Of a stretch of DNA of 47,551 bases, positions 31,715-37,194 are shown piece by piece. A program made the position numbers and the translations under genes. Within the stretch, counting starts at the first letter, position 1, and every line of letters begins with the position of its first letter. Origin of the DNA: Natronosalvus halobius (GTDB lineage: Archaea; Halobacteriota; Halobacteria; Halobacteriales; Natrialbaceae); the NCBI RefSeq assembly GCF_024138145.1, contig NZ_CP099999.1, forward strand, positions 1-47,551, written 5' to 3'. The notes below the pieces were generated by a model that worked only from the letters and a program-made list of their open reading frames with translations, was not told the origin of the DNA and ran no database searches.

Positions 31715-32758
31715 ATGATTACCGATCACGCGGTCCTTCAGCCGGACGTCCAGCCCGATCGGGAGGTGGTCGTCCATCGCGACGGCGAAATCTCACACCT
31801 TACCTCGGTGCTCGAGCCCCTCACACACGGCTACTCCACCACGGGCGCGTTCATCCACGGGCCATCGGGTGCCGGGAAGACCTGCACGACGCGCTGTGTC
31901 CTCGAGGACCTCGAGCGCGTCGCCGGCATCCCGGTCGCGTTTCTCGATTGTCTCTCGATCCATAGCCGGAGAGACGTTCTGAATCACGTCCTCGCCGAGC
32001 TGGGCGATGGGTCGACACTCGAACGCCGGTCGGTCGGCCCGGCCGATATGGCCGTCCGCATTCGCGAAATCGTCGACGAACCGACCGTCGTTGTCCTCGA
32101 CGAGGCCGACCAGATCGACGAGCTTCGCGTGCTCCAGGAACTGTACGAAGTGCCGGATCTGACACCGATTCTCATCGCCAACCAGCCCTGGAGAAAGTTC
32201 GACCGGGCCGATATCCGTCTGGATTCGAGAATCGGGTCGTTTCCGAGCATCGAGTTCGACGCCTACGACGAGTCGGAGTTGGTGGAGATCCTTCGAGAGC
32301 GCGCGTCGATCGGCCTCGAGCCCGGCGCCGTCGAGGCGGGTGTGCTCGAGTATATCTCCGAGTGTGCGGAGCGAAACGACTGTCGCCGGGCGATTTCGTT
32401 GCTTTTCGAGTCGGTGAAGCGGGCGCGTCGCGATGGTGAGGAGTCGGTCACACGCGCGGTCGTCGACGCCTCCAGGACGGATGCCGATCGCCAGGTGATT
32501 CGGTCGCGGTTGTCGTCGCTCTCGAGACAGCAACGGATCGGCCTCGAGGCGATTGGGGAAGTCGGCCCGGCGACGTCGACGCCGTTGCACGAGTGTTACG
32601 AGAAGCGCTCCGATGATCCGGTCGGGAAACAGGCGTTCCGGAAGTGGCTGCCGAAGTTTGCTGAATACGAGTTAATCGAAAAACACGAGAAGAAGGTCGC
32701 GCCCGAATACGAGATCCGAGAGATAGTGCTCGAAGAACTCGGCGCCCAGGTGGCGTAG
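31715..32758 (+). CDS. cdc6: Orc1/Cdc6-type replication initiator (AAA+ ATPase)
   Basis: This 347-residue AAA+ protein carries Walker A GPSGAGKT (49-56), Walker B VVVLDEAD (~125-132), a sensor-I-like strand (TPILIANQPW) and a lid region. Its C-terminal winged helix (~270-347, QQRIGLEAIGEVGPATST ... YELIEKHEKK) would bind origin DNA. Archaeal Orc1/Cdc6 proteins mark origins and load MCM. This copy is shorter than chromosomal ones (about 400 aa), as is common on plasmids and viruses. Together with the nearby MCM it suggests element-specific replication. It converges with a repressor-like gene three bases downstream. Confidence 0.9.
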   Translation: MITDHAVLQPDVQPDREVVVHRDGEISHLTSVLEPLTHGYSTTGAFIHGPSGAGKTCTTRCVLEDLERVAGIPVAFLDCLSIHSRRDVLNHVLAELGDGSTLERRSVGPADMAVRIREIVDEPTVVVLDEADQIDELRVLQELYEVPDLTPILIANQPWRKFDRADIRLDSRIGSFPSIEFDAYDESELVEILRERASIGLEPGAVEAGVLEYISECAERNDCRRAISLLFESVKRARRDGEESVTRAVVDASRTDADRQVIRSRLSSLSRQQRIGLEAIGEVGPATSTPLHECYEKRSDDPVGKQAFRKWLPKFAEYELIEKHEKKVAPEYEIREIVLEELGAQVA

Positions 32759-32761
32759 GAC

Positions 32762-33043
32762 TCAGTCGTCTTCGTCGTCTTCCGGTTCGACGTCGTTCGC
32801 GTCGACTTTCCCCTGGAGATATCCCCGGCCCAGGTCCGTGATCCGATAGTGAGTCGTGTAATCGTCGTCGGGTTCGATGAAACCGCGTGACTCGAGTTCG
32901 GGAATCGCTCGCGTAATCGACGACCTCGATACGTCGAGTTCTATGTCCAGCACGGATACCGGCGCCGCGATGTCCTTTTCCTCAAGGAACTCAAGGACGG
33001 GATTACTGGCTTTATTCATCCAGAGACCCCGCTTGCGGCGCAT
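32762..33043 (-). CDS. PhiH-repressor-like winged-helix regulator
   Basis: This 93-residue protein (MRRKRGLWMNKASNPVLEFL) shows the helix-turn-helix pattern VSVLDIELDVSRSSITRAIP, then a wing (ELESRGFIEPDDDYTTHYRI) and an acidic tail. The opening RGLWM and ILE/VLEFLEE pattern matches the winged-helix family that includes the repressor of halovirus PhiH. Such proteins keep prophage or plasmid genes silent. It faces the structured RNA region at 33.1-34.1 kb across a TATA-containing gap, so it may control those transcripts. Confidence 0.75.
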   Translation of the reverse strand: MRRKRGLWMNKASNPVLEFLEEKDIAAPVSVLDIELDVSRSSITRAIPELESRGFIEPDDDYTTHYRITDLGRGYLQGKVDANDVEPEDDEDD

Positions 33044-33102: not shown

Positions 33103-33125
33103 ATATGAGCCATACTGACTCATAT
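33103..33125. promoter_or_regulatory. Inverted repeat between repressor gene and RNA candidate
   Basis: ATATGAG (33103-33109) and CTCATAT (33119-33125) form a perfect 7-bp inverted repeat with a 9-bp spacer. It lies between the start of the PhiH-like repressor gene and the promoter of the first RNA candidate, a natural operator position. Confidence 0.5.
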
Positions 33126-33163
33126 CTACGCCAAGGTTTAAGTGTACCGGACATTAACAGGGT

Positions 33164-33252
33164 GTTGTCAACGGTAGGGACTCATTGGCGATTCGAATCG
33201 TCAGGAGATTTGACCCCCTGTGGCTGCACACAGGGAGCGACCACTGTTGACA
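33164..33252 (+). ncRNA. Candidate structured RNA with three-way junction
   Basis: TGTCAACGGT (33166-33175) pairs with ACTGTTGACA (33243-33252), ten pairs including one G-U. Inside are two hairpins: GGCGAT/ATCGTC (33187-33202, one G-U) and CCCTGTG/CACAGGG (33216-33235, 6-nt loop). Both G-U pairs work only if the plus strand is the RNA. A TATA-like GGTTTAAG (33135-33142) is about 27 nt before the outer stem, predicting transcription start there. Further hairpins follow at 33313-33335 and 33338-33351. The frame 33105-33302 that covers it looks non-coding. Confidence 0.55.
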
Positions 33253-33390
33253 GACTAAGAGGCCAACACCATGCACAACGGGACCCAACCACAAAACTAT
33301 GATGGTGGTAAAACCGCCAGACGGCAAAGGGCGGTACGGGTGGTAACACCCCCATGTTCACTTATTGGTAAACGCCCCGTTGAGTTTGGT
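33253..33390 (+). promoter_or_regulatory. Hairpin-rich spacer and promoter of the 102-aa gene
   Basis: ACCGCC (33313-33318) / GGCGGT (33330-33335) and GGGTG-GTAA-CACCC (33338-33351) are short hairpins that may extend or terminate the upstream RNA candidate. CTTATTGG near 33361-33368 is placed as a TATA box for a leaderless start at 33391. Confidence 0.4.
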
Positions 33391-33699
33391 ATGGCCGTTC
33401 AAAGCTCACACGCACGCCAGACGAATACGCGAGTTGACACGGTCGACCTTCGCGACCTCGGTTCGGATGTGCTCCCACCGGAAGCGAGTCACGTCCAGGT
33501 CACGATCGCGGGTGACGTCCCCCACGATGGCACGCTCGTTTTCGAGCTCAAGCGCCGGTGGGAACTCGACGTCGCCCTGGGCGATGCCGAGATCGTCTCG
33601 GTCTACGACGACTCGGCGCTGCTCGAGAAGCCGGCCACGATTCCCTCGTGGGTCAGCGTGCTGTGTTCTGAGTTCGGGATTGATGAGGTGACGTTGTAG
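33391..33699 (+). CDS. Hypothetical protein (102 aa)
   Basis: MAVQSSHARQTNTRVDTVDL begins an acidic protein. It has a beta-rich centre (ASHVQVTIAGDVPHDGTLVF) followed by ELKRRWELDVALGDAEIVSV, and a C-terminal segment with one cysteine. GC-rich third positions support coding, and a TATA-like element lies about 27 bp upstream. It stands alone within the structured replication region. Function unknown; possibly linked to origin control by position. Confidence 0.62.
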   Translation: MAVQSSHARQTNTRVDTVDLRDLGSDVLPPEASHVQVTIAGDVPHDGTLVFELKRRWELDVALGDAEIVSVYDDSALLEKPATIPSWVSVLCSEFGIDEVTL

Positions 33700-34175: not shown

Positions 34176-34188
34176 AAAAGCACCCGCG

Positions 34189-34451
34189 TTCTAGAAGGGT
34201 CCTGCCTTTCTAGAAAGGGCAGTCTTCTAGAAAACCCCGTCCTTTCTAGAAAGGCAGGTCTTCTAGAAAGGCAGCCGGTTTCTAGAATACCTACCAGAAA
34301 CCAGTTAGGAAACCAGGTTTTCCACAGGATGAGTCACCAATTTGAAGATAGAACCGGACCGGAACGAACGGCAGTATATAAAGGAGGGTCTGAAAACGCC
34401 TCTAGAAGCGCGAGGTTTCTAGAATCTAGAAAGGCTACTAGGATTCTAGAA
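34189..34451. repeat. TTCTAGAA iteron array, candidate replication origin and operator
   Basis: Eight perfect TTCTAGAA palindromes start at 34189, 34208, 34225, 34244, 34261, 34280, 34417 and 34444, and 7-of-8 copies at 34400 and 34424. The first six alternate 19, 17, 19, 17, 19 bp, that is three 36-bp units with two sites each. Several extend to CCTTTCTAGAAAGG. A TATA box (TATATAAA, 34375-34382) sits between the two groups, so the second group overlaps the transcription start of the next operon. This fits iterons that also repress the downstream rep/MCM genes. Confidence 0.75.
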
Positions 34452-34510
34452 AGCAGATCGCTACTAGAGGGATATCTCCAGTCGATCCAGATGAAACGGG
34501 GGTTCTGTCA

Positions 34511-35128
34511 ATGACCTCCCGGAAAGGGCGGAAGACCTGGGCCGGGGAACTCCCGGTGGAGACTCGCAACGCCATCAAAAAGGAGGCGAAAGAGACCGGC
34601 AAACCGCAGTGGCAGGTCGTTGACCAGGCCGTCCGTCTGGCTCTCGGTCTCGACGAGGGTTCCACCGAAGCGGCTCTCGAACGCCAGCTCGAGGAACACC
34701 GAGAAGAGGCCGAGGACTTCAAGGAGAAAGCCGAAGAGTTCTCCTCGAAGGCCGAAGACCGTCTCGAGAACATCGACCGGCTCCAGGAACAACTCGAGGA
34801 GATTCGCGAATCGAAAGCGAGCTACCGCGAGCAACTGGACGAGGTTCTCGATTCACTCCTCGAGAACCCGAACACGACGGTCATGGCGTACTCGTCCGAG
34901 ATCCAGCAAGCAGCGATCGACGAGTACGGGCGTGATACGAAGGACAATATCTCCCGCGTAGTGGCTGACCTTCACGATCGGCGCGATAAACGTGACCTTC
35001 AACTGGAGGATCACCGCTTCAAGCGCTCCAGCATGAACGTCTCGACTAATCAATCTGCGACCGCTGACGGTGGAAACAACACGCCGAACCTTCGAATCCT
35101 CTCTGACGAGGATGGTGATTCTGAATGA
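34511..35128 (+). CDS. Ribbon-helix-helix plus coiled-coil protein, candidate iteron-binding Rep
   Basis: This 205-residue protein starts with an RHH-like segment (~12-47, GELPVETRNAIKKEAKETGK then PQWQVVDQAVRLALGL). A long acidic coiled coil follows (~52-115), then a helical domain (~118-160) and a polar tail. An RHH dimer reads short palindromes, and 10 TTCTAGAA sites lie directly upstream, so it is the best candidate to bind them. Its stop overlaps the MCM start, so both are made together. Role as origin-binding protein and autorepressor is inferred from this layout. Confidence 0.75.
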   Translation: MTSRKGRKTWAGELPVETRNAIKKEAKETGKPQWQVVDQAVRLALGLDEGSTEAALERQLEEHREEAEDFKEKAEEFSSKAEDRLENIDRLQEQLEEIRESKASYREQLDEVLDSLLENPNTTVMAYSSEIQQAAIDEYGRDTKDNISRVVADLHDRRDKRDLQLEDHRFKRSSMNVSTNQSATADGGNNTPNLRILSDEDGDSE

Positions 35129-37194
35129 GTGCCCAACAAATCCCCGAAGTAATGGAATCGTGCGAAGAATTCCTCAAGAAGTACTACAAAGAGGAAGTGC
35201 TTCGCCTAGCGAACCGGTTCCCAAATGACCAAAAGTCGCTGGTGATCGACTGGAACGACCTGTTCAAGTACGACCCCCGGCTCGCTGACGACTATCTCGA
35301 CCAGCCGAAGATCGTCCTCCGGCACCTCAAGGAGGCGCTCCGGACCTACGACCTCCCGGCAGATATCGACCTCTCGGCCGCGAACGTACGCATCGAGAAC
35401 CTCGAGGACGCCCGGACGGTCCACATCAACGAGTACCGACCCGAGCAGATCGGCCAGGCACTCGGGATTCGCGGCCAGGTCACACAGCTATCGGAACCGA
35501 AACCGCAGATCGATGAGGCGGCTTTCGAGTGTACGCTCTGTGGAACACTTCACCGGATTCCACAGTCCGGCGGCGACGAGATGCAGGAACCGCACGAATG
35601 CCAGGGCTGTGAGCGACAGGGTCCGTTCCAACTGAACACCGAGCAGACGGTCTTCCAGCAGTATCAGGTCGCACGTCTCGAGATGCCGCCTGAGCGCTCG
35701 AACACCGGGCAGGCACACATCGACGTCCGAATGTACGACGACCTCGCCGGGAAGTCTCTCGAGGGCAACGAACGCCTCACGGCGAACGGTATCCTGTCGA
35801 TTGATGACGACGACCTCGAATCGCGTACGTTCGACTACCACCTCGAGACCGAGGGCGGATCGTTCGAGATTGAGGACGGCGGTTTCGAGGACATCGACTA
35901 CGAGGAACACATGGACGACATTCGGGCGATCGCCGAGAGCGGCGATCCGATCGGGATGCTCGTCGACTCACTGGCGCCGCAACTCTCTCGGGATGAGCGC
36001 CTCGAGCAGATCATGACCGCGATGGTCCTCCAGCTCGTCGGCGCCGGTCGGAAGGACCTCGAGGACGGGCCGACCTTCCGGGGCGACTTCCACGTCCTCA
36101 TCCTCTCGGACCCCGGAATGGGAAAGTCCGAACTCCTGGGCGAGGTCGAAGATATCTCGCCGATCGGCCGCTACGTCAGCGGGAAGGGGCTCTCGAAAGC
36201 CGGCGCGACGGCCGCTGCCGTGAAAGACGACTTCGGCGGCTCGGAGTACACGCTCAAGGCTGGTATCCTGGTCCTCGCGAACGACGGAATCGCGTGCATT
36301 GACGAGATCGACAAGGTCCAGCCGAACGCCGTCCAGGCGATGCACGGGGCGCTCGAGCGTCAGCGCGTCGACGTCATGAAGGCGGGCATCTCCTCGAAGC
36401 TCCCGGCGAAGACGTCGCTACTGGCGGCCGGAAATCCGAAGTACGGCCGGTTCGACCGCCACCAGCCGATCTCGGAACAGATAGACCTCGCACCATCGCT
36501 CATGTCCCGATTCGACCTCATGTTCATGATGTCGGACACGCCCGACGAGGAACGCGACCGCGAGGTCGCCGAACACATCGTCCAGTCGTGGGACGAGGCC
36601 GCGAGATCGGCCTACCGTGGCGAAGGCGACGGCACGATCGTCGAGCGAGAGATTCCGACCGAAGTCCTCCGGGCGTACATCGCCTACGCGAAAGAGACGG
36701 TCAAACCGGTATTCGCGAATGCAGATATCTGGAACCGGTTCATCGACCACTACGTAAAGATCCGATCGAAGGGCGTCGACGAGGACTCCCCCGTCCCGGT
36801 GACGGCCCGCAAACTTCAGGCCTTCCTCCGACTCGCGGAAGCGTCGGCTCGAGCTCGTCTCTCGGACACGATCGAACACGAGGACGTCACGCGGTCGATC
36901 GAACTCATCATGCGGTCGCTCAACGACGTCGGAATCGACCCCGAAAGCGGAGAGTTCGACGCCGATATTGTCGAAGCAGGCACCTCGAAAAGCCAGCGCG
37001 ACCGCGTGAAAGGCGTGAAGGCGTGCATCCTGGACGTCGAGGAAGAGTACGACAGGGGCGCACCCATCGACGTGGTCCTCGAGCGCTGTAATTCGATCGG
37101 CATCGACACGGACAAAGCCGAGTCTGAAATCGAGAAACTGAAACAGAAAGGCGAACTCTACGAACCGTCTGAGGGGGTCTTCCTAACTACCTGA
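35125..37194 (+). CDS. mcm: MCM replicative helicase
   Basis: This 689-residue AAA+ helicase has an N-terminal domain (to ~250) with a zinc site formed by CTLCGTLH (~136) and CQGC (~159). Walker A DPGMGKSELL lies at ~331, Walker B ACIDEIDKV at ~389, sensor 1 AAGNPKYGRFD at ~434 and the arginine finger SRFDLMF at ~461. A C-terminal winged helix starts at ~630. All catalytic parts are intact and length matches archaeal MCMs. It unwinds DNA at the fork. Several haloarchaeal plasmids and viruses carry their own MCM. Here it follows an iteron array and an RHH protein in one operon. Confidence 0.96.
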   Translation: MSAQQIPEVMESCEEFLKKYYKEEVLRLANRFPNDQKSLVIDWNDLFKYDPRLADDYLDQPKIVLRHLKEALRTYDLPADIDLSAANVRIENLEDARTVHINEYRPEQIGQALGIRGQVTQLSEPKPQIDEAAFECTLCGTLHRIPQSGGDEMQEPHECQGCERQGPFQLNTEQTVFQQYQVARLEMPPERSNTGQAHIDVRMYDDLAGKSLEGNERLTANGILSIDDDDLESRTFDYHLETEGGSFEIEDGGFEDIDYEEHMDDIRAIAESGDPIGMLVDSLAPQLSRDERLEQIMTAMVLQLVGAGRKDLEDGPTFRGDFHVLILSDPGMGKSELLGEVEDISPIGRYVSGKGLSKAGATAAAVKDDFGGSEYTLKAGILVLANDGIACIDEIDKVQPNAVQAMHGALERQRVDVMKAGISSKLPAKTSLLAAGNPKYGRFDRHQPISEQIDLAPSLMSRFDLMFMMSDTPDEERDREVAEHIVQSWDEAARSAYRGEGDGTIVEREIPTEVLRAYIAYAKETVKPVFANADIWNRFIDHYVKIRSKGVDEDSPVPVTARKLQAFLRLAEASARARLSDTIEHEDVTRSIELIMRSLNDVGIDPESGEFDADIVEAGTSKSQRDRVKGVKACILDVEEEYDRGAPIDVVLERCNSIGIDTDKAESEIEKLKQKGELYEPSEGVFLTT

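Follow-up and report, generated by a model that had tools for sequence, protein, structure and literature searches.

A candidate three-way-junction leader RNA in the replication modules of haloarchaeal plasmids and PhiH-like viruses

The locus and its fold

The window analysed here is a whole contig of 47,551 bases from a haloarchaeal genome. Its replication region had been predicted to encode a previously unannotated three-way-junction RNA next to a PhiH-like repressor gene. The gene content agrees with this placement, as a gene resembling repR of the halovirus PhiH is located at 32762-33043, in the company of genes for Orc1/Cdc6 and MCM. The order of the replication genes is matched in the Natronosalvus plasmid NZ_CP101158. 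The features of the region are as follows.

31715-32758, plus strand: Orc1/Cdc6 gene, upstream of the cassette (Pfam AAA_16, Cdc6_lid)
32762-33043, minus strand: divergent winged-helix (PhiH RepR-like) regulator gene (Pfam HVO_A0261_N, below the gathering score; blastp to PhiH RepR, E 3e-4)
33103-33125, no strand assigned: inverted repeat ATATGAG (33103-33109) / CTCATAT (33119-33125) with a spacer of 9 nt, upstream of the leader TATA box; possible operator for the divergent RepR-like regulator
33137-33142, plus strand: TATA box TTTAAG, putative leader promoter
33164-33252, plus strand: three-way-junction leader RNA, with a predicted +1 at about 33164-33166 and pairing constraint from the first base of P1
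33166-33175, plus strand: 5' arm of the outer stem P1, 10 pairs with 33243-33252, one of them G-U (33173/33245)
33181-33207, plus strand: hairpin Pa, CUC/GAG plus an 8-pair stem, with G-U pairs 33185/33204 and 33188/33201; positional counterpart of P2/P3 of the plasmid type described below
33216-33235, plus strand: hairpin Pb, 7 pairs, loop 33223-33228; positional counterpart of plasmid-type P4
33243-33252, plus strand: 3' arm of P1, partner of 33166-33175
33259-33262, plus strand: GAGG, resembling a Shine-Dalgarno sequence, 8 nt ahead of the ATG; GAGGCCAACACCATG is kept in a relative of the same genus (G114)
33271-33699, plus strand: small open reading frame (ORF), 142 aa long when counted from the first ATG past the RNA; annotations in plasmid relatives cover its 102-aa core, which starts at 33391
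33310-33353, plus strand: second conserved nucleotide block, inside the 5' part of the small ORF
34511-37194, plus strand: downstream replication genes, namely a coiled-coil protein (34511-35128) and MCM (35125-37194)

Many TTCTAGAA/TCTAGAAAGG repeats occupy 34180-34470, past the small ORF and ahead of the replication genes, about 1 kb downstream of the leader; these are possibly origin iterons.

The three-way junction at 33164-33252 is present on the plus strand, both in the sequence itself and in its RNAfold prediction. Indeed, the predicted 10-pair outer stem around two hairpins is the minimum-energy structure of this strand (-39.4 kcal/mol, z -4.31), and none of 200 shuffles folded as well; the minus strand at the same site gave -32.6 kcal/mol with a z of -3.21. 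One detail of the original prediction needs to be amended. It correctly noted G-U pairs but counted two, while there are three in the P1, Pa and Pb helices and a fourth in the minimum-energy structure. The TATA-like element TTTAAG starts 29 nt before the outer stem. The architecture by itself is weak evidence, because a pattern scan (an outer stem with 10 or more pairs, G-U allowed, and two enclosed hairpins with 6 or more, all within 101 nt) detected it at 16 places when both strands of the 47.5 kb window were covered, 33164-33252 among them. The case is therefore carried by comparison with relatives. No Rfam match was obtained for the window at the gathering threshold or for 16 loci at E values up to 1, and ARAGORN identified no tRNA or tmRNA genes in 11 loci.

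Related leaders and compensated pairing

A DNA search of 125 genomes of the family returned a low-E-value match in a genome of the same genus (G114), which starts just past the RNA at GAGGCCAACACCATG, and a short match in another genome (G066). Upstream of the former match is a leader whose outer stem and second hairpin are the same. Sixteen relatives within the Natrialbaceae have in common a TATA box, an outer stem with inner hairpins, and a start codon close by. When 11 leaders were aligned with MAFFT, they displayed an arrangement, here called the plasmid type, with P1 outermost, followed by an internal loop, P2, and then a junction with P3 and P4. In this alignment 87.1% of 349 cells were paired and 11 pairs had changed on both sides, and the paired percentage, pairs, cells and covariation score were matched in none of 500 shuffles. 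The count of pair types was unremarkable, the observed value being reached in 69 of the 500 shuffles.

These 11 seed leaders were used to build a covariance model (R1), of which R2 is an enlarged version. Over the 125 family genomes, R1 detected 15 places with at least 36 bits in 14 genomes, and the next best match had 29.1 bits. Ten of the 15 places were seeds. The five others (G043, G077, G064, G024 and G105) all had a TATA box upstream and a winged-helix gene in divergent orientation, and four of them were followed by the small ORF, which was clear in G043, G077 and G024, represented by a weak relative in G064, and absent from G105. In these five held-out sequences 135 of 153 cells were paired, and 13 cells had pair types that do not occur in the seed. 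A search with R2 over 391 genomes of the class gave 15 places with at least 54 bits in 14 genomes, all Natrialbaceae, followed by a gap to 29.9 bits. Matches to either model below about 30 bits, in this and other families, are regarded as chance; among the matches listed, those inspected were ordinary chromosomal or coding sequence. Pattern matches in the viral contigs L356-L361 and in G181 had no R2 match and were also rejected.

In an alignment of all 16 leaders, 87.9% of 505 cells across 32 pairs were paired, as compared with 32-43% when one side was slid; these values are biased towards the model structure, since this alignment was fitted to the covariance model. Two-sided changes were observed in 14 of the 32 pairs (37 cells), and no shuffle out of 500 was as high in any of the five measures. 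Under a tree-aware substitution null, two-sided cells had a mean of 10.8 and a maximum of 25 in 1000 simulations, so that the 37 observed were never reached. Covariation, which the original prediction had proposed as a check, is thus seen for the structure as a whole, but a per-pair tree-aware test in the manner of R-scape marked only 1 of the 32 pairs, and none outside the structure, at the little power that 16 sequences provide. Homologues breaking both sides of the stems independently were also looked for, and the stems held. The view that the plus-strand RNA is the relevant form is supported by an excess of G-U over A-C among the 505 paired cells of the 16 relatives (55 versus 22) and by a lower folding z on the plus strand in 18 of 20 leaders.

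The genes around the leader are partly constant. A divergent winged-helix gene was present upstream in all 12 genome stretches that were compared, with replication proteins of differing groups. The annotated plasmids mostly carry Orc1/Cdc6, the divergent winged-helix gene, the small ORF and a replication gene (MCM or large winged-helix proteins) in this arrangement, and in some plasmid records no winged-helix gene is annotated at the expected place. A separate set of 83 loci of MCM relatives consisted of other elements, in none of which the small protein was found. The position of the RNA, with replication genes on both sides and the repeats downstream, could be taken to mean that it serves as a replication primer or origin RNA. 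We consider this very unlikely, as the leader is kept alongside unrelated replication proteins (RepH-like, a Rep of about 400 aa, and MCM) and is then followed by a start codon.

The leader of the window itself differs from the plasmid type. Its match to R1 has 11.1 bits and covers only 33199-33252, the P1-P4 sequence and structure of the plasmid type are not seen in it, and its genome has no R2 match at E 0.001. All positional features of the plasmid type are present, namely the TATA box, P1 at the predicted +1, a close in-frame ATG, the divergent winged-helix gene and the small ORF. RNAalifold applied to the window together with two relatives from the same genus (G114 and G111) yielded the junction of the window, with P1, Pa and Pb, in which 6 of 24 pairs have a two-sided change; one pair of Pb is U-A in the window and C-G in both relatives. 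The distal half of P1 is missing in G111. Because the R1 score is low but the junction is compensated within its own genus, we treat the window as a putative shorter variant of the plasmid-type leader, joined to it by P1, the promoter, the start codon and the gene context.

A generic three-way-junction scan of other RepH plasmid leaders proved non-discriminating, often picked other stretches, and is not used as evidence. It gave junction-like folds near the expected place in pHTUR03 (L353) and in Halalkalicoccus FCH27 (L354), the latter being equalled by 41 of 100 shuffles, and no junction in the leader of Halococcus dombrowskii (L346).

Transcript start and the small ORF

Each of the 20 aligned leaders has, as read by eye, an AT-rich box at a distance of 27-31 nt upstream of P1. 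In 19 loci the arms of P1 paired better with each other than with arms swapped between loci (mean of -10.7 versus -7.9 kcal/mol; none of 5000 permutations as good). The same was not true for a rejected helix, P0, in which the bases just before P1 would pair with those preceding the ATG. This helix was seen in several folds of single sequences, but its own arms gave -4.87 and swapped arms -5.02 kcal/mol in 19 loci (3116 of 5000 permutations as good). Since the P1 arms prefer their own partner and the bases just before P1 do not, the pairing constraint appears to start at the transcript start predicted from the TATA box. Spacing and constraint together support the start near 33164-33166 that had been expected.

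This boundary also bears on whether the element acts as DNA, either as a cruciform or as paired operator half-sites for the RepR-like protein. The cores of the plasmid-type P1 arms, TGTCA/TGACA, are nearly constant, as operator half-sites might be. However, the pairs change by compensation rather than keeping their sequence, the preponderance of G-U over A-C described above is that of an RNA, and there is no reason why the complementarity of a DNA palindrome should end at the predicted +1. A DNA element is therefore very unlikely.

The first ATG is found 4-21 nt past the RNA, and in 18 of 20 loci it is in frame and continuous with the small protein. In one of the two others the first ATG is out of frame (L122), and in the second (L121) the protein start was not located by the script and was counted as out. 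Because a conserved ORF begins so soon after the stem, and mostly in frame, we regard the RNA as probably the conserved 5' leader of an mRNA that would start at about 33164-33166, code for the small ORF at 33271, and be transcribed away from the RepR-like gene. The original prediction had instead suggested a free-standing copy-control or immunity RNA, which would act in trans or as an antisense RNA. Its position in a replication-control cassette would suit such an RNA, and PhiH has an antisense RNA, T(ant), annotated nearby, opposite the T1 leader. On the other hand, the downstream start codon argues against a free RNA, T(ant) is located elsewhere in PhiH, no T-run was seen by eye after P1, and a non-systematic look by eye found no complementary target or antisense promoter. 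A free-standing RNA is thus quite unlikely. Sequence comparison gives good support to two points, namely that the RNA is under selection and that it lies at the 5' end of an mRNA.

The small ORF of the window had matches in 17 of 391 genomes. A profile of 16 core proteins detected 32 of the 391 genomes at E 0.001, and 17 places in 16 genomes, all Natrialbaceae, had at least 68 bits. Among plasmid records there were 8 matches with the window ORF, of which a bacterial one (Embleya) was set aside, and 7 with a second family member. No convincing family assignment for the 16 members came from Pfam, NCBIfam or PHROGs, and the 102-aa core of the window, modelled alone with AlphaFold2, had a mean pLDDT of 45.6. 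In 12 of the 17 strong places a match to the leader model is found just upstream. Such an association would be expected if, as a special case of the leader reading, the RNA were an autoregulatory site bound by the protein of the small ORF itself. We consider this unlikely, as the PhiH leader has no recognisable relative of the protein, G105 has the RNA but not the protein, and the RepR-like neighbour varies less than the small protein among the loci that were inspected.

In the plasmid annotations (L257-L266), the small ORF mostly starts at an inner methionine. Since the first ATG past the leader lies upstream and in frame in most loci, the annotated proteins are probably too short, which suggests that, for most of these plasmids, the start should be shifted upstream by about 40-75 codons. 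A second conserved block, about AAATCGCMAGACGGCAGAGGGTGGAACGGGTGGAANCACCCCC, follows the first ATG and precedes the protein core in the window (33310-33353) and in L116, L117, L118, L122, L127, L128, L132 and L274. Because its reading frame differs between relatives, giving KTARRQR in the window, KNRPTAEGG in L118 and KSPDG in L116, this block may act as a nucleic-acid element and not as coding sequence; a hairpin is possible in its 3' half. Distant relatives of the small protein in another haloarchaeal family (L330, L331 and L333) are preceded by AAATCGCCAGACGRCAGCACTTCCGTTCACTTCCGTTC or similar, in which short direct repeats come after the same word AAATCGCCAGACGGC; L324, L325 and L327 have repeated TTTCCGGCCA-like words.

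We infer that the leader affects its mRNA, be it through translation, stability or a ligand, and it would do so in cis. When P1 is closed, the first nucleotides of the mRNA would be paired and its 5' end would be held beside the ribosome-loading site. For this reason, the fold would most likely set the lifetime and translation efficiency of an early message of the replication module, adding RNA-level control on top of repression by the RepR-like protein.

The haloviruses PhiH and phiCh1 and other known systems

The record of PhiH (MK002701) shows a comparable arrangement. Its repR gene is divergent from T4, an annotated early lytic transcript that starts at 34556 and is followed by small ORFs and repH. 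The PhiH transcript corresponding to ours is thus annotated as early lytic rather than as one of immunity. Base 34556 is also the first base of an outer stem around two hairpins, and TATAAG is positioned 31 nt before it. PhiH RepH has relatives among the large replication proteins of plasmids (E 1e-48 and 3e-55), whereas the relation of RepR to the regulator of the window is weak; the small ORFs of PhiH have no recognisable relation to the plasmid small protein. With R2, the PhiH leader scored 11.1 bits at the right place, which is not significant and ranked third in the 12 kb searched.

In phiCh1 (AF440695), the intergenic region between ORF48 and ORF49 has the PhiH fold, with 43 common pairs; 3 of them have a two-sided change, and there are no one-sided changes or broken pairs. 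This record gives no transcript start. A third virus contig fits as well: all three viruses retain 23 of 26 pairs, 2 pairs are gapped, and one in the outer stem has a one-sided mismatch in phiCh1. A second strong hairpin is found past the junction in PhiH (L344, 34657-34697) and in phiCh1, with an A-U to G-C compensated pair between the two viruses.

Many haloarchaeal mRNAs have no leader and, to our knowledge, conserved structured 5' leaders have rarely been described in archaea. In bacteria, structured 5' leaders such as riboswitches and ribosomal-protein leaders form a conserved fold at the 5' end of the mRNA, close to the start codon. The RNA described here, which matches no Rfam family, resembles them in having such a fold in the same place. 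No description of it was found in the literature searched, which included passages of PMC6210493 and PMC11431627 and, for the original transcription work on PhiH, reference lists and the record annotation; together with the Rfam result, this agrees with the prediction that the RNA was previously unannotated.

The annotated antisense RNA of PhiH is a regulatory RNA of the same phage region, but it is a minus-strand RNA from 38732, whereas ours would be the sense leader of another transcript. The closest known counterpart is the 5' leader of PhiH T4 (34556-34729), which shares with the plasmid-type leaders the divergent winged-helix repressor gene, a TATA box some 30 nt upstream of the stem, an outer stem with two hairpins at the 5' end, and small ORFs and a replication gene downstream. 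In addition, its P4 (CGUG-7 nt-CACG) matches that of the plasmid type. The PhiH leader differs in its longer continuous outer stem, the extra hairpin past the junction, its length of 174 nt, its unrelated small ORFs and the presence of RepH in place of MCM, and sequence similarity alone is not significant; the phiCh1 leader differs from ours in the same ways. The link between viruses and plasmids rests on topology, position and the P4 hairpin. For the window, topology and context agree with the T4-type leader, its start being predicted and its sequence match not significant. Whether these leaders represent a new class of archaeal regulatory RNA seems to us evenly balanced. In such a class, a three-way junction of the first transcribed nucleotides would bring the mRNA 5' end to the start codon and control the early replication transcript of PhiH-like viruses and plasmids, as a cassette swapped among unrelated replication proteins. 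If this is true, archaeal viruses and plasmids would have a family of structured 5' leaders in common. With the leader fold kept between both and the transcript start annotated in PhiH, RNA-level control of an archaeal replicon would be directly testable in a classic system.
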